15,044 bases of DNA from an uncultured Alphaproteobacteria bacterium. GTDB lineage: Bacteria > Pseudomonadota > Alphaproteobacteria > Rhizobiales > Hyphomicrobiaceae. This document shows, piece by piece, positions 1-10,000 of this stretch. The stretch covers positions 1-15,044 of the forward strand of contig CALFEM010000065.1 in NCBI GenBank assembly GCA_937950105.1. The letters are read 5' to 3'. The position numbers were made by a program, and so were the translations under genes. Positions within the stretch are counted from its first letter, which is position 1. Each line of letters starts with the position of its first letter. The notes beneath the pieces were generated by a model that had not been told where the DNA came from, did not search any database, and saw only the letters and a list, made by a program, of their open reading frames with translations.

Positions 1-19
1 CTGCATATCGCAAGACGAA

Positions 20-365
20 TGGTGCTGCCGGTGAGGATTGAACTCACGGCCTCTCCCTTCATCACACTGCCCGTTTCGGGCCGCTGACCTCCGCGTGAGG
101 CGAGCGTTCGTGCGCTGGACCATCCCTTCATCATCAGTTCGCGACCGAGGTCCCGAACCCTTAGATGCCACCCGTCTGGCCTCTACACCTTCCCTCGCGA
201 GCAGTGCTCGGTTCGGGCTTGGCTCGGGATTGGCGTGGGGCCGTCGGCGCTGGTGCGCTTCTGGCCCGTTAGCTTTCCCCGAATTTGGGTGGTGTTGCCC
301 CGACCGTTTCCGGCCGGGCTGGCAAAATCTACCAAGGGAGTGCTCTACCACTGAGCTACGGCAGC
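20..365 (-). tRNA. tRNA-Thr(GGT), interrupted by a group I intron
   Basis: Read on the minus strand, 365-331 gives the 5' half (7-nt acceptor strand GCTGCCG, D arm GCTC/GAGC, anticodon strand CTCCC, loop TTGGT). Positions 59-20 give the 3' half (AA, GGGAG, variable AGGCC, T arm GTGAG-TTCAATC-CTCAC, acceptor CGGCAGC, discriminator A, encoded CCA). Joined, they make a complete cloverleaf with every stem fully paired and anticodon GGT, which decodes ACC/ACU threonine codons. The halves are separated by 271 nt inserted between T36 and A37, so the gene works only if the intron is removed. The insertion point matches the known tRNA-Arg(CCU) and tRNA-Ile(CAU) bacterial introns, which also follow a U at position 36. 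A damaged copy of the 5' half lies just upstream. Identity is very well supported; whether this is the cell's only GGT isoacceptor cannot be told from the window. Confidence 0.93.
60..330 (-). ncRNA. Group I self-splicing intron in tRNA-Thr
   Basis: The 271-nt insertion begins after a T and ends in G, the standard group I boundaries. P1 pairs 5'-exon UUGGU with intron nt 8-12 (GCCAG), giving the required U.G at the splice site; the UUUU just before it can pair with 3'-exon AAGG as P10. Core elements appear in family order: an 8-bp hairpin with GAAA loop (P2); CCACCC with GGGTGG (P3); AATTCGGGGAAAGC and AATCCCGAGCC (P and Q, forming P4); GTAGAGGCCAGACGG (R) and AAGGGATGGTCCA (S), forming P7 as GGCCA/UGGUC; a P8 hairpin of GTTCGGGACC with GGTCGCGAAC; and a terminal hairpin around GAAA. 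Compared with the Azoarcus tRNA-Ile intron as I remember it (GACUA/UAGUC), P7 differs on both strands yet still pairs. The core resembles subgroup IC3. There is no internal ORF, so it encodes no homing endonuclease. Splicing activity is inferred. Confidence 0.93.
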
Positions 366-379
366 TTATTTCCTTCGTT

Positions 380-403
380 CTGCTACCCCGGCTGCTACCC
401 CGG
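380..403. repeat. 12-bp tandem direct repeat (two copies)
   Basis: The unit CTGCTACCCCGG occurs at 380-391 and again, identically, at 392-403 (CCGGGGTAGCAG on the minus strand). It lies between the intact tRNA-Thr and the partial tRNA copy. Short adjacent direct repeats beside a tRNA-derived attachment site could be integrase arm-type sites left from a lost element. That is inference only; no integrase gene is present here. Confidence 0.6.
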
Positions 404-462
404 AGCCTTCGTGAAACTCTCAAGTCCTTGTAACGACTGCATAAACGCAGGATAGATCATCC

Positions 463-501
<39 letters not shown>

Positions 502-852
502 GAGGGGCGAGGGAGCGGAACCGCATCGAGCGGAGACAATACCCTGCCGGTTCGAGTCGGCGTGGCCGGCTCGAAGCGGGCGCACACTGCCACAAGCCTC
601 CCCCTCGGGCAAGCCGCAACGATAGCCTCTTTCGCCAAGTCCACATTCATCCACTGTTGATGCGTCCGGGCCGCTGCGATCGCCGCGGATCATGGTAAGG
701 AAGGCCAAATCAGCGGTGCTGGCCCGGTGTTTGCTTCAGCAGGCCGCCTGCACACGGGGCGCTCCGCCCGCGCGGTAGGTCGTGTCGGGGGGCATCGGCT
801 GGCGAGGCGCCATGAGGCGGCATGCGGGGTGGTGCTGCGACTGGAGGAATGC
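502..852. other. Intergenic stretch, no gene recognised
   Basis: Short overlapping ORFs exist on both strands, but none has a convincing start, ribosome site or recognisable composition. The segment near 550-565 (GGTTCGAGTC) resembles a tRNA T loop, but its flanks do not form a 5-bp T stem and no cloverleaf surrounds it. I see no terminator with a T run. Confidence 0.5.
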
Positions 853-1134: not shown

Positions 1135-2439
1135 ATGACGGACATGGATCGCATCAGGATTACCGGCGGCAACAAACTCAACGGCGTCATCCCGATCTCG
1201 GGCGCCAAGAACGCGGCGCTGCCGCTGATGATCGCGTCGTTGCTGACGGCGGACCGGCTGACCTTGAAGAACGTGCCGAATCTCGCCGACGTCAACCTGC
1301 TGGCGCGCATTCTGCGCAATCACGGCGTCGATCTGGCGGTCGACGGCAAGCGTCCCGGTGTCACGCCGCATCTCGGCGAGACCTTCCACCTGACCGCCCG
1401 CGACATCGTCGACACGACCGCGCCTTACGAGATGGTCAGTCGCATGCGGGCGAGCTTCTGGGTGCTCGGCCCGCTGATCGCGCGCATGGGCCAGGCCAAG
1501 GTGTCGCTGCCGGGCGGCTGCGCCATCGGTACGCGCCCGGTGGACCTCCACCTCGACGGCCTCAAGGCGCTCGGCGCCGAGATCGACATCGACGCCGGCT
1601 ACGTGCTGGCCAAGGCCCCGCGCGGCGGCCTCAAGGGCGCCCGCATCCTGTTTCCGAAAGTCTCGGTCGGCGCTACGCACAACGTGCTGCTGGCAGCCGC
1701 GCTGGCCAAGGGCGAGACCGTGATCGAGAACGCGGCGCGCGAGCCGGAGATCGGCGATGTCGCCAACTGCCTCGTGAAAATGGGCGCCGAGATCGAGGGC
1801 ATAGGCTCCTCGACGCTGCGCATCCAGGGCCGCGACCGCCTCGAAGGCGCCGTGCATGCCGTGCTGCCGGACCGCATCGAGACGGGCACCTTCGCCTATG
1901 CCGTCGCCGCGACCGGAGGCGATGTGACCCTCGAGGGCACGCGCATGGATCTGCTGGAGACGGCACTCGCCGTGCTGCCGCAGATCGGCGCGACGGTGAC
2001 GCCGACCGCGAACGGCATCCGCGTCACGCGCAACGGCTCGGGTATCGAGCCGATCAGCATCGAAACGCAGCCCTTCCCCGGCTTCCCGACCGACCTGCAA
2101 GCACAACTCATGGCGCTGGTGACGACCGCGCACGGCACCAGTGTGATCCGCGAAACCATTTTCGAGAACCGCTTCATGCACGTGCAGGAGCTGGCGCGCC
2201 TCGGTGCCGACATCCGTCTGCATGGCGATACGGCGACCATCAAGGGCGTGCCGAAGCTGACCGGCGCGCCGGTCATGGCGACGGACCTGAGAGCCTCGGT
2301 GTCGCTGGTCATCGGCGGTCTCGTCGCCGAAGGCGAGACCATGATCAACCGCGTCTATCACCTCGATCGCGGCTTCGAGCGGCTGGAGGAGAAGCTGACC
2401 CGTTGCGGCGCCGCCATCGAGCGCATCTCGGCCGGCTGA
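1135..2439 (+). CDS. murA: UDP-N-acetylglucosamine 1-carboxyvinyltransferase MurA
   Basis: MurA transfers enolpyruvate from phosphoenolpyruvate to UDP-GlcNAc, the first committed step of peptidoglycan synthesis, in the cytoplasm. The 434-residue product is close to the usual length (about 420-430). The N-terminus [12 protein letters not shown] followed by SGAKNAALP (Lys25, equivalent to substrate-contacting Lys22 in E. coli) is diagnostic. Cys129 in [15 protein letters not shown] is the catalytic cysteine attacked by fosfomycin, so sensitivity rather than a Cys-to-Asp resistance form is expected. The C-terminal half holds the second EPSP-synthase-like lobe, with [11 protein letters not shown] and [13 protein letters not shown]. 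The start could be ATG 1135 or ATG 1144 (MDRIRI, the commoner family start); neither has a strong ribosome site. The stop codon is followed at once by ten G residues. A small ORF precedes it and a repeat element follows, so its link to the downstream hisD row is broken here. Confidence 0.97.
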
Positions 2440-3643: not shown

Positions 3644-4951
3644 ATGCCGAAACGACTGACGACCGCCGCGCCCGACTTCGAGACCGCCTTCCAGGCGTTT
3701 CTGGCCGAGAAGCGCGAGATCTCGGACGACGTCGATCAGGCCGTGCGCGCCATCATCGCCGAGGTGCGCCGTGATGGCGACAAGGCCCTGATTGCCCTGT
3801 CGCGCAAGTTCGACCACGTCGATCTCGAAAAGCTCGGCCTGCGCGTCACCGCCGCGGAAATCGCCGCCGCGCGGGCGTCCTGTTCTGCGGAAACGCTCGC
3901 CGCGCTCGAGCTGGCGCGCGACCGCATCGCCGAGCATCACCAGCGCCAGTTGCCCGCCGACGATCGCTATCGCGATGCGCTGGGCGTCGAACTCGGGCAT
4001 CGCTGGACGGCGGTCGAGTCGGTCGGCCTCTATGTGCCGGGCGGGCTCGCCTCGTATCCGAGCAGCGTGCTCATGAACGCGGTGCCGGCGAAGGTGGCAG
4101 GCGTGCCGCGCATCGTCATGGTGGTGCCGTGCCCGCGCGGCGAGCTGAACCCGCTGGTGCTGGCGGCGGCCGAGATCGCCGGCGTCAGCGAGATCTACCG
4201 CATCGGCGGTGCTCACGCTGTCGCCGCCCTCGCCTACGGCACCGAGACCATCCGCCCGGTGGTCAAGATCGTCGGGCCGGGCAACGCCTGGGTCGCCGCC
4301 GCGAAGCGCCAGGTGTTCGGCACCGTCGGCATCGACAGCATCGCCGGCCCGTCCGAGTTGCTGGTCATCGCCGACAAGGACAGTGATCCGGAGTGGATCG
4401 CCGCCGATCTGCTGGCGCAGGCCGAGCATGACACGGCTGCGCAGTCGGTGCTGATGACGGACGACGCCGACCTCGCCGCCGCCGTCGAGCGCGCGGTCGA
4501 GCGTCAGCTGGCGACGCTCGCGCGCGGCAACATCGCCGGCGAGAGCTGGCAGGTGTACGGCGCCACGATCGTGCTGAGGTCACTCGACGAGGCGCCGGCG
4601 CTGGCGGACCGTTTCGCCGCCGAGCATCTCGAGATTGCGACCGCCGACGCGGAAGCCCTCGCCGCGCGCGTGCGCAACGCGGGCGCGATTTTCATCGGCC
4701 ACCACACGCCGGAAGTGATCGGGGATTATGTGGCGGGCTCCAACCACGTGCTGCCGACCGCCCGCAGCGCCCGCTTTTCTTCGGGTCTCGGTGTGCTCGA
4801 CTTCATGAAGCGCACCTCTCTTCTGAAACTCGACGCGGGCGCGCTGGCGAGCCTCGCGCCCGCTGCCATGGCGCTGGCCCGCGCCGAAGGCCTCGAAGCT
4901 CACCGCCGCTCCGTCGAGATCCGTCTCGAGCAACCGCGCAAGGACACCTGA
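3644..4951 (+). CDS. hisD: Histidinol dehydrogenase HisD
   Basis: HisD carries out the last two steps of histidine synthesis, oxidising L-histidinol through histidinal to L-histidine with NAD+ and a zinc ion, in the cytoplasm. ATG 3644 (MPKRLTTAAPDFE) gives 435 residues, matching the family's usual length; the upstream extension to 3509 is arginine-rich and unlike HisD. The zinc ligands line up with E. coli: Gln259 and His262 in LLAQAEHD, Asp361 in IGDYVAG, and His420 in GLEAHRRS. The catalytic Glu-His pair is 327-328 (AAEHLE). The signature around IDSIAGPSELLVIAD and the VGLYVPGG and GPGNAWV segments are intact. Its TGA shares bases with the ATG of the next gene (TGATG), so translation of the UPF0262 gene is likely coupled to hisD. 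Confidence 0.97.
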   Translation: MPKRLTTAAPDFETAFQAFLAEKREISDDVDQAVRAIIAEVRRDGDKALIALSRKFDHVDLEKLGLRVTAAEIAAARASCSAETLAALELARDRIAEHHQRQLPADDRYRDALGVELGHRWTAVESVGLYVPGGLASYPSSVLMNAVPAKVAGVPRIVMVVPCPRGELNPLVLAAAEIAGVSEIYRIGGAHAVAALAYGTETIRPVVKIVGPGNAWVAAAKRQVFGTVGIDSIAGPSELLVIADKDSDPEWIAADLLAQAEHDTAAQSVLMTDDADLAAAVERAVERQLATLARGNIAGESWQVYGATIVLRSLDEAPALADRFAAEHLEIATADAEALAARVRNAGAIFIGHHTPEVIGDYVAGSNHVLPTARSARFSSGLGVLDFMKRTSLLKLDAGALASLAPAAMALARAEGLEAHRRSVEIRLEQPRKDT

Positions 4952-5448
4952 TGTCAGGCAATCAAAACGCCGAGCAACCGAGCCGCGCTCGCCTGTACTC
5001 GATCGAGGTCGACGAGAAATCGCTGGCCCGCAACAGCGCCAATGTCGAGCACGAGCGCGAGGTGGCGATTTTCGATCTGCTCGATGGCAACTCGTTCGAC
5101 GTGGTCGGCCGCGAGGACGGTCCATTCCGCCTCGTCATCTCGCTGGTCGAGCAGCGCCTGCAGCTGGCGATCGGCACCAATGCCGAGCCGGAGGTCGTCA
5201 CGCATCAGCTGTCGATGACGCCGTTCAAGCGCATCATCAAGGACTACTTCATGATGTGCGACAGCTACTACGAGGCGATCCGCACGGCGCCGCCGGCCAA
5301 GATCCAGGCCATCGACCAGGGCCGTCGTGGCCTGCACGACGAGGGGAGCCGGCTGCTGATGGAGCGGCTCGACGGCAAGGTCAACGTCGACTTCGATACC
5401 GCGCGTCGCCTGTTCACGCTCATCAGCGCGCTGCACTGGAAGGGCTGA
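4951..5448 (+). CDS. UPF0262 family protein
   Basis: This is a 165-residue soluble protein of the uncharacterised UPF0262 family, which is found in Alphaproteobacteria next to hisD. Recognisable stretches are LYSIEVDEKSL, EREVAIFDLL, DGPFRLVISLVEQRL, PFKRIIKDYFMMCDSYYEAI and the C-terminal DFDTARRLFTLISALHW. The length is close to the family norm. The start ATG overlaps the hisD stop (TGATG), which fixes the start and points to translational coupling. No catalytic motif, metal site or membrane segment is evident. It ends the plus-strand row: a strong hairpin lies about 70 nt downstream. In related genomes, as I recall, a low-molecular-weight phosphatase gene and infA come next; here that position is taken by a long non-coding stretch and signalling genes. 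Confidence 0.92.
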   Translation: MSGNQNAEQPSRARLYSIEVDEKSLARNSANVEHEREVAIFDLLDGNSFDVVGREDGPFRLVISLVEQRLQLAIGTNAEPEVVTHQLSMTPFKRIIKDYFMMCDSYYEAIRTAPPAKIQAIDQGRRGLHDEGSRLLMERLDGKVNVDFDTARRLFTLISALHWKG

Positions 5449-5514
5449 GGAAGCCCGTCGGCGCTGCCGGCGCCCGGCTGCATTGCGCGCGCCGCTGCTG
5501 CCGCCCGAAATGGC

Positions 5515-5891: not shown

Positions 5892-5940
5892 TGTCGTGAG
5901 GATAGGCTTTTGCCGCCAGGGAGGCAGAAGCCTTGCGACA
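5892..5940 (+). promoter_or_regulatory. Two-tier hairpin enclosing the kinase RBS and start
   Basis: An inner 10-bp stem pairs GGCTTTTGCC (5905-5914) with GGCAGAAGCC (5923-5932), with one U.G pair. An outer 5-bp stem pairs TGTCG (5892-5896) with CGACA (5936-5940). The ribosome site AGGGAGG (5918-5924) sits in the apical loop and the first bases of the inner stem, and the TTG start (5933-5935) lies in the internal loop between the stems. The fold would control access to the start region. It resembles no riboswitch class I know. Function is inferred; the pairing is seen. Confidence 0.5.
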
Positions 5941-8900
5941 CGAGCCATCGATCCCGGTTTCGGGCCCGGTATCGGGCAACGCCGAGCGCGCGCCGGGCCG
6001 CAGCGGAGCGGCATCGGAGCCCGTGCATGCGATCGATCGTGCGGCAGCCGGCCAAGCCGTTCGTAAACGTGGCCTGACCGCCGCGGTGCCGCGCGGGGTG
6101 CAAGTGGCGCGAAGTTGGCCACTGTGGCGGCGACTCGCGCTCGGAGGCGTGATCGCCGCCGCTGCCGTCACGTTGCGGCAGTTCATCGACGAACCGCTCA
6201 CCGACCAGCACCTCTATGCCACCTTGCTTCCTGCGGTTGCGATGGCTGCAGTGCTGGGTCGCCGGTCCGCCGGACTTCTGGTGGTGGGAGTCGCGGCGGC
6301 GCTGACCCATGTCTTCATCGCACCGCTCGCTCTCGTCACCGACTGGCTGACGCTGGCCGCGTTCGTCATCGGATCGCTGGTGATCGTCGCCGCGGCTGGA
6401 GTCCTGCATGCGGCGCTCGACGAACTCGAGGAGCGCAAGGCCGCCGACGCTTCGACCGCAGCGCAATCGCAACTTGCCGCCATCGTCGAGTCGACCAGCG
6501 ATGCCGTCATCGGCTTCGACAACACGGGCCGCATCTTCAGCTGGAACCCGGCCGCCGAACGGCTGTTCGGCTACACCGCGGACGAGGCGATCGGACGCAA
6601 TGCCGACCTGCTCGTCGCGCCGCTCGGCCAGATTCCGTCGGGAGAAACCGCGCGCGGCGCCCTCGATCTGGCGCTCGGCGGCGAACGGTTCGCCAGCGAT
6701 ACGCGGCGGGTGGCGAAGGACGGCACGGTGATCGATGTGGCGCTGACGGCAACACAGATCCGTGACCGCGAAGGTCGCGTGCTCGGCGTATCGGCGATCA
6801 TGCGCGACATCCGCGAACGACGCCGGTCGGAGCTGGCATTGCGGCAGAGCGAGGATCGCTTGCAGCGCTTCGTGACGGATGCGCCGGCGGCCATTGCAAT
6901 GCTGGATCGCGGTATGAACTATATCGCCGCCAGCCGGCGATGGGTCGACGCCTACGGCCTCGACCCGGCGAACTTCATCGGCCGCTTCCACTCCGAGCTG
7001 CACCCCGACCTGCCACCTCATTACAAGGACGTTCACAAGCGCGCTCTGGCCGGAGAGGTTGTCCGCGCCGAAGAAGAATTCCTGCCTCTGCGCGACGGCA
7101 CCCTGCGCTGGGTCCGCTGGGAGGTTCGCCCCTGGCACGAGGCGGACGGAAATGTCGGTGGCATCGTCATTCTCAGCGATGACGTGACCGCGCGCGTCGA
7201 AATGGTTCGGGATCTGCGCGAAAGCCGGCAGAATCTCGCCCGCGCGCAGTCGATCGGCCGTATCGGCAGTTGGCGGCTCGACGTGACGCGCAATGCGCTC
7301 GACTGGTCGGAGGAAAACCATCGCATTTTCGGCGTCCGGCCCGGGAAGCCGATGAGCTATGACGGCTTTCTCGCGATCGTACATCCGGACGACCGGGCCT
7401 TTGTCGACGAGGCATGGAAGCGGGCCCTGGCGGGCGAGGCCTATGACATCGAGCACCGGATCGTCGTCGACGGCGCCATCCGCTGGGTGCGCGAACGCGC
7501 CGAGCTGGAGTTCGGTCCGCAAGGCCGGCTGCTCGGCGGCTTCGGTACCACCCAGGACATCACGGAGAAGAAGGAAGCCGAGGCGAGGCTGGCGGAACGC
7601 GAGGCGCAGTTGCGGTTTGCGCTGAGCGGTGCACGCGCCGCCGCCTGGCGGTGGAACATCCGCACGGGTGAGCAGCAGTGGTCACCTGAGGGTTACGTTC
7701 TGCACGGTCGCGATCCGGCGCTCGGCTCGCCGAGCTACGCCGACTGGATGTCCTGCCTGCACCCCGACGATCGCGTCCCGCTCGAAGACGTGCTCGCCCG
7801 GGCCGCCAAGCAGTCGGACCCGAGCTTTCGCAGCGAGTATCGCGTCATCCTGCCGTCGGGCGAAGTGCGCTGGCTCGCCTCGCTCGGACGCATCGAATTC
7901 GGCGCCGATGGTGCCGCTATCAGCATGTCGGGCATCAATCTCGACGTAACCGAGCGGCGCAGGACGCAGGAAGCATTGGCGCTCGCCAAACAGCAGCTCG
8001 AAGCTCACATCGATAACTCGCCACTGGCCGTCATCGAGTTCGACCGCGAGTTTCGTGTCGTGCGCTGGTCGGCGGGCGCCGAGCGGCTGTTCGGTTGGTC
8101 GGCGGCGGAGGTCTGCGGCAAGCTCGTCACCGATCTGCGCTGGGTCCACGAAGCCGACAGCGTCGCCGTCACAGACATCATGGAGCGCATGAAGACCGGA
8201 GACAGCTTCCGCAACGTCACCGTCAATCGCAACTATCGCAAGGACGGCTCCATCGCCGACTGTCAGTGGTACAACTCCGCCGTCTACGATGCGCAGGGCA
8301 ACCTCGCCTCGATCCTCAGTTCTGTACTCGACGTGACGGAGCGCAATCGCGCCGAGCGCGAGTTGCGCAAGAGCGAAGAGCGCCTGCGCATGTCGACAGA
8401 GGCGGGTGGTATCGGGACGTTCACCGTCGACGTGCCGAGCGGGAACGCGGAGTTCTCTCCCGAAACCTCCGTCATGGTCGGTTTTCCCGCCATGTCCGGT
8501 GCGCCCATCTCGGAAGTTTTCGCGCGGGTGCATCGCGACGATCTGGCGATGGTGCGCCAGCACTACGAGGCGGCGCTCGATCCGTTGCGGGGGGGCCACC
8601 TGCGCGTCGAGTTGAGGTTCGTTCAGCCCGGTGGCGCAGTCCGCTGGATGACGTGGAGCGGCAGGGTCGAGTTCACTGACGAGGACAACGCTCGCCGGCC
8701 GTTGCGGCTGCTCGGCATCTGCGCCGATACGACGGAACGGCGTCAAGTGCTCGAGGAGCTGCGGCTCGCGAAGGAAGACCTGGAGCGGCGGGTGGCCGAG
8801 CGCACGGCCGAGCTGCAGGATGCGATGCAGCGGCGCCAGGAAGCCCAGGAGGCCCTCGCCCACTCGCAGCGGCTCGAAGCGCTCGGCCGTCTCGCCGGTG

Positions 8901-10000
8901 GACTGACGCACGACTTCAACAACACACTCGCGGCGATCGGCGCCCATATCGAGCTGGCGGCCGCACGCACACCGGATGAACTGGCGCGTGACTATCTCGG
9001 CAAGGCGCTCGACGCTGTCGCGTCGAGCGCAGGGCTCAACTTGCGGCTGCTGAGCTTCACACGCCGCAAGGCGCTGCCGCGCGAGGTGGTCGACACCCGC
9101 CAGGTTCTCGCCAATTCCGTCGAGATGGTGCGGCGGACGATCGATGGCGGAATAACCCTGACTGCAGATATTGACGACGACCTCTGGCCGACGATCGTCG
9201 ATGTGAGCGAGGTGCAAAGTGCGATGCTCAATCTCGCGATCAACGCGTGCGACGCCATGAGGGACGGTGGCACCCTCAGCATCCGGGTCGAGAACGCTGT
9301 CGTCGGTGCGTCGCCGGATGACGCGCAACTCGAAGGCAACTCCGCTTCGGGCGGACAATTCGTGCGCGTGGTCGTTGCTGACGACGGCGAAGGCATGTCT
9401 CCAGAGGTGCTGGCGCGGGCCGGCGAGCCGTTCTTCACCACCAAAAGCGTCTCGAAGGGGACCGGGCTCGGCCTCAACAGTGTGCGCGAATTCGTGCGGG
9501 CGATCGGCGGCTTCATGACCATCCGCAGCCAGCTCGGCAAGGGGACTGTGGTCGCGATCTACCTGCCATCGGCAGTCGGGCAGCAACCGCAACATCATCT
9601 GCCTGCCGATCGCTCGATCGTTTCTCTCGGGGATGGCGAGACCGTGCTGCTGGTCGAGGACGACGAGCGCGTGCTGGAAGCGACGCACGCTCTCATCGAG
9701 GGACTCGGCTATGCGGTCATCGATGCGCGCAGCGGCGAGGAAGCACTGCGACTTCTGGCGTCCGACGCGCATGTCGCCGTCGTGTTGAGCGATGTCGTCA
9801 TGCCCGGCCAGATTTCGGGCTACGACGTGGCGAGGACCGTCAAGCGTGACCACCCGAACGTCGGTATGGTGCTCGCCTCGGGCTATGATGCCGAAGAGCA
9901 GCGCGGGTCAGAAGCCGTGCCGGGGGTTCGATCGCTGCGCAAGCCGTTCACGCGCGCCGCGGTCGCCGAAGTGTTGCGCAAGGCTATGGCGCCGGGCTGA
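5933..10000 (+). CDS. Membrane hybrid histidine kinase with six PAS domains
   Basis: This 1355-residue sensor would autophosphorylate on histidine and pass the phosphate to a receiver. The order is: basic N-tail (1-65); DUF4118/KdpD-like membrane region with several helices (about 66-162); six PAS domains (about 178-296, 305-421, 440-545, 558-674, 685-803, 813-935), several of the PAS_3 type with HPDDR-like motifs; coiled coil (935-985); HisKA with His993 in GGLTHDFNN; HATPase with N-box Asn1104, DDGEGM near 1150, FFTTK and GTGLGL at 1176-1181; and a receiver with acidic pair in VEDDER (1241-1246), phospho-acceptor Asp1287 and Lys1337. All key residues are present. TTG 5933 is supported by AGGGAGG 8 nt upstream; no in-frame ATG occurs before residue 103. 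Its 3' end overlaps the convergent response-regulator gene by 17 nt. No HPt domain is present. The signal is unknown; PAS cofactors cannot be told from sequence. Confidence 0.93.
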   Translation: MRHEPSIPVSGPVSGNAERAPGRSGAASEPVHAIDRAAAGQAVRKRGLTAAVPRGVQVARSWPLWRRLALGGVIAAAAVTLRQFIDEPLTDQHLYATLLPAVAMAAVLGRRSAGLLVVGVAAALTHVFIAPLALVTDWLTLAAFVIGSLVIVAAAGVLHAALDELEERKAADASTAAQSQLAAIVESTSDAVIGFDNTGRIFSWNPAAERLFGYTADEAIGRNADLLVAPLGQIPSGETARGALDLALGGERFASDTRRVAKDGTVIDVALTATQIRDREGRVLGVSAIMRDIRERRRSELALRQSEDRLQRFVTDAPAAIAMLDRGMNYIAASRRWVDAYGLDPANFIGRFHSELHPDLPPHYKDVHKRALAGEVVRAEEEFLPLRDGTLRWVRWEVRPWHEADGNVGGIVILSDDVTARVEMVRDLRESRQNLARAQSIGRIGSWRLDVTRNALDWSEENHRIFGVRPGKPMSYDGFLAIVHPDDRAFVDEAWKRALAGEAYDIEHRIVVDGAIRWVRERAELEFGPQGRLLGGFGTTQDITEKKEAEARLAEREAQLRFALSGARAAAWRWNIRTGEQQWSPEGYVLHGRDPALGSPSYADWMSCLHPDDRVPLEDVLARAAKQSDPSFRSEYRVILPSGEVRWLASLGRIEFGADGAAISMSGINLDVTERRRTQEALALAKQQLEAHIDNSPLAVIEFDREFRVVRWSAGAERLFGWSAAEVCGKLVTDLRWVHEADSVAVTDIMERMKTGDSFRNVTVNRNYRKDGSIADCQWYNSAVYDAQGNLASILSSVLDVTERNRAERELRKSEERLRMSTEAGGIGTFTVDVPSGNAEFSPETSVMVGFPAMSGAPISEVFARVHRDDLAMVRQHYEAALDPLRGGHLRVELRFVQPGGAVRWMTWSGRVEFTDEDNARRPLRLLGICADTTERRQVLEELRLAKEDLERRVAERTAELQDAMQRRQEAQEALAHSQRLEALGRLAGGLTHDFNNTLAAIGAHIELAAARTPDELARDYLGKALDAVASSAGLNLRLLSFTRRKALPREVVDTRQVLANSVEMVRRTIDGGITLTADIDDDLWPTIVDVSEVQSAMLNLAINACDAMRDGGTLSIRVENAVVGASPDDAQLEGNSASGGQFVRVVVADDGEGMSPEVLARAGEPFFTTKSVSKGTGLGLNSVREFVRAIGGFMTIRSQLGKGTVVAIYLPSAVGQQPQHHLPADRSIVSLGDGETVLLVEDDERVLEATHALIEGLGYAVIDARSGEEALRLLASDAHVAVVLSDVVMPGQISGYDVARTVKRDHPNVGMVLASGYDAEEQRGSEAVPGVRSLRKPFTRAAVAEVLRKAMAPG

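Follow-up and report, generated by a model that had tools for sequence, protein, structure and literature searches.

A tRNA-Thr(GGT) gene at the left end of the window (the whole analysed stretch of 15,044 nt, from an uncultured member of the Hyphomicrobiaceae) is split directly after its anticodon by an insertion that the evidence supports as a group I intron, and this intron-bearing gene is probably a replacement borne by an integrated element that broke the native tRNA-Thr(GGU) gene. A 5' half, presumably of the native gene, lies beside the intron-bearing copy. This half was absent from the initial annotation of the sequence, and it changes the meaning of the find.

The intron-split tRNA-Thr(GGT) gene

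With introns allowed, ARAGORN called the gene on the minus strand at window positions 365-20, with an intron of 271 nt (330-60) between a 5' exon holding tRNA bases 1-36 (365-331) and a 3' exon holding bases 37-76 including CCA (59-20). The coordinates and the junction TTGGT/AAGGG coincide exactly with those proposed in the initial annotation, whose placement of the insertion between bases 36 and 37 also holds in standard tRNA numbering (counted by hand, with one D-loop position absent). The 5' exon is identical in three related genomes (G097, G096, and G081). Default ARAGORN, with introns off, called no tRNA in the window, and Rfam at its gathering cut-off gave no match over the whole window; this intron-split gene is thus one that both tools miss at default settings. 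A high score with the Rfam Intron_gpI model (RF00028) had been proposed as a check. With an opened threshold, the model did give the best match, spanning window positions 340-115 (24.6 bits; E 4e-4 over 620 nt), but this score lies below the gathering score of 50, which is a search cut-off and not a biological feature. Introns of the tRNA-Leu(UAA) type in this family likewise fall under that cut-off, at 46-49 bits. When the intron was folded with one exon base, 4 of 200 shuffles did as well (z -2.65). Assignment to a group I intron in tRNA-Thr(GGT) is supported by covariation, insertion position, the U-G pair at the splice site, the terminal G, and the occurrence of related introns at this site in eight other genomes.

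Intron structure and covariation

The structure was drawn on the window sequence, all on the minus strand, and examined in an alignment of nine tRNA-Thr introns. The exon supplies the 5' strand of P1 (UUGGU, 335-331, with U331 as the 5' splice site), and the internal guide GCCAG (323-319) pairs its GCC with the anticodon GGU and its G with the splice-site U. There follow the P2 hairpin with a GAAA loop (318-299), the 5' strands of P3 (292-287) and P4 (282-278), the 3' strand of P4 (228-224), the 5' strand of P7 (GGCCA, 181-177), the 3' strand of P3 (173-168), P8 (167-129, pairing 167-164 with 132-129), the 3' strand of P7 (UGGUC, 122-118), P9 (114-63, pairing 114-110 with 67-63 and carrying GAAA near its tip), and the terminal G at position 60. 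The group I core, P3-P8 with P7 crossing P3, together with P4-P6, is present. P3, P4, P7, and P8 had been noted from the sequence in this order, and P3, P4, P6, P7, and P8 are paired in 100% of cells across the nine introns. All nine likewise keep the terminal G and the U at the 5' splice site paired with the guide G, the latter also in the 11 of 11 rows of a joint alignment with tRNA-Leu introns.

Of the 414 cells that the 46 drawn pairs make up over the nine introns, 96.6% are paired, and 12 pairs have changed on both sides. None of five covariation measures was reached by shuffles (0 of 500), and sliding the partners by 1-3 columns lowers pairing to 24-43%, a control that favours the drawn structure since this was drawn on the window sequence. 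When seven Thr introns were aligned with four tRNA-Leu introns, 96.0% of 506 cells were paired and 20 pairs had changed on both sides, with one of the five measures (further pair types) reached by 111 of 500 shuffles. In the Thr introns, P2, P3, P5, P6a, P8, and P9 each contain at least one pair changed on both sides, and P7, which had been said to pair still, remains paired, with G-U and A-U among its variants and one change from C-G to U-A. The P4 and P6 pairs are invariant in all nine and, never varying, carry no evidence either way.

The initial annotation held that the guide fits this exon, and GCC indeed pairs with the anticodon GGU in nine of nine Thr introns. Guide and exon change together, with GGU/GCC in Thr and CUU/GAG in Leu next to a constant splice-site U-G. 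The full P1 drawn as UUGGU/GCCAG fared less evenly: its three anticodon pairs are kept in all, whereas the two outer pairs form together in the window, G097, and G092, singly in G106, and in none of the other five. P10 pairing (AAG with UUU or CUU) is possible by eye. In IC3 introns, the GAAA loops of P2 and P9 dock into P8 and P5. Both places read GAAA in all nine Thr introns. Three introns lack a pair to close the P9 loop, and the P9 GAAA of the window, G097, and G096 has a C on either side. The tRNA-Leu and tRNA-Arg introns akin to that of the window are ones that we take to be of subgroup IC3, and a core shared with these bacterial introns, together with features known from this subgroup, would place the window intron there as well.

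Distribution of related introns

The initial annotation had proposed to seek the same insertion in relatives, and related introns were found at this site in eight other genomes. The family surveyed was that of G001 (Hyphomicrobium sp.), with 103 genomes, of which six are carriers by DNA search with the intron (G097, G096, G092, G035, G036, and G106); the junction is identical in every one of them. The same six came back as clear matches to a model of the 5' part, along with four weaker matches that are Leu-type introns. A sample of the order yielded 47 intron matches in 45 of 397 genomes; 30 had loci, all of them typed by reading the exons by eye, and gave Thr introns in G096, G035, G257, and G281 and otherwise Leu(UAA) and Arg(CCU) hosts. 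Among the 17 untyped matches, G321 and G220 may hold further Thr introns. ARAGORN misnames several intron-split tRNAs in this sample.

More widely, a model trained on Thr introns (R1) gave 41 matches in 38 of 385 genomes sampled from the class, 30 with loci and 29 typed (L390 lacks a tRNA call). Exons read by eye identified Thr(GGT) introns in seven of the 385 (G553, G839, G654, G602, G749, G762, and G566), the loci of G553 and G566 being cut off before the 3' exon. In the phylum sample, there were 27 matches in 27 of 398 genomes, each with a locus, and none in tRNA-Thr(GGT) among the 26 typed (L413 has no call). Since the model was trained on Thr introns, hosts other than Thr are undercounted. 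Three loci of the class scan (L385, L387, and L388) have group I introns in tRNA-Lys-like genes, with anticodons CUU and UUU by eye, a host outside the list of the initial annotation. Two further loci are recorded here in their own right. One is a tRNA-Leu-like gene with a group I intron (L089, in G012, 1476-1835) that reads the anticodon UGA with a mismatch in the anticodon stem, which may be an error, a pseudogene, or a real change. The other is contig C36 of G006, another Hyphomicrobiales genome, where two strong group I matches (L081 and L082; 89 and 82 bits) lie about 1.5 kb apart.

A tree of intron cores (151 columns) divides the Thr introns into two groups plus G281, and the Hyphomicrobiaceae Thr group with G257 adjoins seven of eight Arg(CCU) introns, with weak deep support, a long-branch warning, and a bootstrap that had not settled. 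The tree holds 50 rows, left from 88 loci after a core-pattern requirement and removal of duplicates; G566 was dropped. A host jump from Arg(CCU), whose introns share the insertion position, is a possible origin on these sequences.

Records of plasmids and phages gave no match to the window intron. Virus-borne Thr introns were sought in a targeted scan of viral contigs, which returned five stretches, none an intron-bearing tRNA-Thr. In a wider scan of the viral contigs (loci L218-L337), at least 25 of at least 123 places with the intron core motif lie inside tRNA genes that ARAGORN calls as intron-split, for instance L258, L309, L246, L306, L235, and L261. Among the matches listed, the hosts are tRNA-Leu(UAA) and tRNA-Arg(CCU) and, by name or look, tRNA-Arg(UCU), tRNA-Asn, and tRNA-Lys. 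Phage introns known by 2014 lay in protein genes, according to the part of a review available (PMC3984707).

An orphan tRNA-Thr(GGT) half beside the intron-bearing gene

On the same strand, window positions 501-466 hold an orphan 5' half of tRNA-Thr(GGT), the presumed remnant of the native gene, which equals the intron-bearing copy in 35 of 36 bases and differs at base 6. Beyond TTGGTAA, the 7-nt anticodon loop (471-465, minus strand), the tRNA reading is lost, and the half with its following sequence gives only a sub-threshold Rfam tRNA match (17.6 bits, E 0.82). The spacer between half and intron-bearing gene (464-366, minus strand) contains the 12-base direct repeat CTGCTACCCCGG twice (380-403, plus strand), candidate arm sites of an integrase; similar repeats, judged by eye, stand behind the intact tRNA-Thr genes of G062, G089, and G084. 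Many shuffled sequences fold at least as well as half plus spacer (z -0.39 in the window, -1.39 in G097). The native locus is marked by murA (1135-2439, plus strand), the usual neighbour of tRNA-Thr(GGT) in these genomes. This site is usually intact: 60 of 80 murA loci of named genomes have an intronless tRNA-Thr(GGT), and the other 20 show no tRNA-Thr(GGT) within the stretch fetched. Farther along the window, positions 5933-10000 encode a protein of 1355 aa with many PAS domains, a kinase ATPase, and a receiver domain, adjoined by a convergent response regulator (10742-9984).

The block of half, spacer, and intron-bearing gene is common to the window, G097, and G096. In raw alignments, the spacer matches the window at 94 of 100 positions in G097 and 81 of 98 in G096. 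For the intron, G097 agrees with the window at 252 of 271 aligned positions (23 gap columns) and G096 at 231 of 253 (33 gap columns), against a murA DNA identity of 81.6% and 77.4%. The three sequences diverge within a few bases past the tRNA. Identities of the upstream flank (75 of 102 and 65 of 94) are inflated because the aligner leaves end gaps free and opened many gaps. A MurA tree of 37 rows joins the window to G081 (91% identity) and G097 to G096. G081, nearest to the window by MurA, has an intronless tRNA-Thr(GGT) with exons identical to those of the window. The intron label needs four changes on this tree, of which several deeper forks are open. The contrast between spacer or intron and murA suggests, without proving it, that the block spread by horizontal transfer; a structured RNA may also evolve slowly and so widen that contrast.

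A different reading of the block is that the intron-bearing gene is itself native and the upstream half a decayed tandem duplicate, with no mobile element involved. Tandem intact tRNA-Thr(GGT) genes are known in L064, the exons in the window are those of the native gene in its nearest relative, there is no integrase in the window, and the weak Rfam tRNA match over the half and the sequence after it would suit a decaying copy. Against this, the block recurs in G097 and G096, yet MurA pairs the window with the intronless G081 and those two with each other.

Cut and uncut sites in two related genomes

The comparison of G095 with G096 bears most directly on the origin of the block. G095 has the same tRNA-Thr whole and intronless, and its DNA is about 92% identical to that of G096. 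On the left, its flank matches contig C79 of G096 for 5461 nt (91.9%), a match that stops with the last base of TTGGTAA; on the right, its flank matches contig C56 for 981 nt (92.9%), beginning with the first base of TTGGTAA, and the two matches overlap by 7 nt. Since the flank matches end and start at this motif, the native gene of G096 was opened exactly at the anticodon loop. The 5' half in G096 has CTCCA in place of CTCCC, and the 3' half on C56, starting TTGGTAATGGAG, would pair with it (CTCCA/TGGAG). Beside this 3' half lie a tyrosine integrase with an arm-binding domain (4243-5505), AlpA, and a VapE-domain protein. On its other side is folE, which the 981-nt match to G095 spans; of 135 loci searched, that of G086 alone has folE next to tRNA-Thr, so that the native downstream neighbour varies. 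At its left end, the G096 island shows the 5' half followed by sequence that is not tRNA and then the whole intron-bearing gene, which starts 98 nt inside; behind that gene on C79 is an open reading frame with weak AAA ATPase matches. PADLOC, run on four proteins of the island, gave weak matches to the AAA protein only, and relatives of the integrase were found in one of 103 family genomes, G096 itself (at a cut-off of E 1e-60).

The G095/G096 pair thus indicates that the native gene was disrupted by an island, which brings along a replacement with the intron. G096 has the split target with a short shared core, and a tyrosine integrase at an end, as in tRNA-gene genomic islands; restoration of the target by an island fragment was not found in it. 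A decayed duplicate is less likely after this comparison, since the matching 3' half of G096 lies on another contig beside an integrase and the gene is uncut in G095, and we consider that reading unlikely. For the window, which ends 19 nt past the tRNA and where only the left end of the putative island is visible, the island and its crossover core at TTGGTAA are proposed by homology to G096. Among the matches listed for G097, there is no displaced 3' half; contig C170 has an 18-nt match.

Other elements at tRNA-Thr(GGT)

The tRNA-Thr(GGT) gene is a busy integration target in the family genomes. In G084 and G010, a displaced 3' half accompanies an intact gene. In G035, G042, G024, and G090, another type of integrase adjoins an intact gene, with a displaced 5' half in G035, G042, and G090; the integrases of G042, G024, and G090 are 38-40% identical to that of G035. 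The G035 element (L116, 1931-12780; 10.5 kb) encodes a tyrosine integrase, a resolvase, and a D12-class DNA methylase. Its insertion is at the 5' exon of the tRNA, at TTGGTA, in the order 5' half, element, and intact intron-bearing tRNA-Thr. In G036, the intron-bearing gene directly adjoins the same radical-SAM gene as in G035. A viral contig (L340, 6376) has a tRNA-Thr 5' half ending at TTGGTAAAGG and then non-tRNA sequence, resembling an attachment site.

The geometry in G035, with its counterpart in G036 and its related integrases, makes conceivable that the window arose in another way, a native intron-bearing tRNA-Thr having been struck by an element of this second type, which carried a 5' half, restored the gene, and was then mostly lost, with half and spacer left behind. 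We consider such a course of events quite improbable: the spacer repeats in the window resemble by eye those behind intact tRNA-Thr genes, among them that of G084, which has a displaced 3' half, and G096 retains both native halves as well as both exons of the intron-bearing gene. Since G092, G106, G035, and G036 lack the half-spacer-gene block and have the intron in an apparently native gene, the intron itself is independent of such an island.

Probable function of the intron and of the proposed replacement gene

In the proposed mechanism, an element would have entered the native tRNA-Thr(GGU) next to murA at its anticodon loop and left the native 5' half as a fragment (501-466). The element's own intron-bearing gene would then have the same orientation and lie some 100 nt farther inside, within reach of the native promoter, which presumably reads through half and spacer; window positions 1-800 showed no sigma-70-like consensus promoter and no terminator. 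In the transcript, the guide GCC would pair with the anticodon GGU, the U36-G wobble would mark the 5' splice site, guanosine would bind P7, and the exons would be joined to an ordinary tRNA-Thr. The intron most likely excises itself, to judge from its sequence, and the gene is presumably expressed and spliced. Self-splicing in vitro and in vivo is reported for BbgpI, a related Arg(CCU) intron (PMC7717549, in excerpt).

For all six family carriers, tRNA-Thr(GGT) was called solely in its intron-bearing form, with no intact copy (30 of 41 matches typed over eight genomes, two of them intronless; 11 without a locus). Nor was one called in G257, G281, or the seven class carriers, G566 having a 73% full-length match to tRNA-Thr (L435) that was not called a tRNA. 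Intact copies may be hidden in missing parts of the assemblies. If carriers have none, splicing is needed for growth. That the intron has decayed and lost splicing, another tRNA serving the ACU and ACC codons, appears highly improbable: the changed P9 tip of the window, G097, and G096 introns would fit such decay, but exons, splice-site pair, and core are intact and covarying, and no intronless tRNA-Thr(GGT) was called in the six family carriers.

Replacement of the native gene raises a further, tentative idea, which we regard as doubtful though possible, that the intron insulates the island's replacement tRNA against the island's own integrase. The integrase would recognise the anticodon stem-loop, and a plain replacement about 100 nt from the island end would itself be a target and invite self-destruction. 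The intron would split the target in DNA and be removed in RNA, so that the replacement would work as a tRNA and not as attB. If true, the ribozyme would be an immunity device of a mobile element. A general shield against integration was also considered and is contradicted by the G035 element at TTGGTA of an intron-bearing gene; the intron thus does not block all integrases.

Comparison with known systems

In the openly licensed literature searched, the reported bacterial tRNA hosts of group I introns are those that the initial annotation listed, tRNA-Leu(UAA), tRNA-fMet, tRNA-Ile(CAU), and tRNA-Arg(CCU), and no such intron in tRNA-Thr(GGU) was found there, which is not proof of absence. The present case would add this tRNA to the list. 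Introns of 22-49 nt claimed for cyanobacterial Arg, Gly, and Lys tRNAs (PMC5733544, in excerpt) are in our view too short for group I. The Arg(CCU) introns, BbgpI among them, resemble the window intron in their core and in being inserted after an anticodon ending in U36; in the part of the source available (PMC7717549) they differ in host and guide, here Thr(GGU) and GCC, and the intron described here is probably borne by an island. The tRNA-Leu(UAA) introns of the same family (L086-L089) have the core and helices of the Thr introns and differ in their insertion after U34 and a guide matched to ACUU.

Islands in tRNA genes, as catalogued by Islander, likewise have a tyrosine integrase, a crossover in the anticodon loop, and a displaced 3' fragment, but restore the gene by a fragment (PMC4383910, in excerpt). 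In the present case the native gene would be left broken and the element would supply a complete one. Closer are prophages of Sinorhizobium meliloti, which in two strains broke tRNA-Leu(UAG) and supply a similar gene; tRNA-Thr(GGU) is an integration hot spot in that species too, and the excerpt available mentions no intron in the replacement tRNA, which here bears one (PMC11476347). An island whose replacement tRNA carries a group I intron was not found in the openly licensed literature searched; the parts would thus be of known kinds and their combination, of intron host and island replacement, new.

Archaeal tRNA introns are spliced by proteins and are not ribozymes, and so differ from the window intron. 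The idea of a mobile element bringing an intron into a tRNA gene is shared with the archaeal model of Sugahara et al. (2012), in which attP brings the intron into an intron-free gene (PMC8371274 and PMC4390854, both in excerpt). Randau and Soll proposed that introns may guard tRNA genes against integration (cited in the available part of PMC4390854). G095 and G096 form a clean before-and-after pair, in which a tRNA gene was broken by an island that provides a substitute with an intron, and this pair makes the old proposal directly testable in bacteria. The find also suggests a route by which group I introns could move between hosts.
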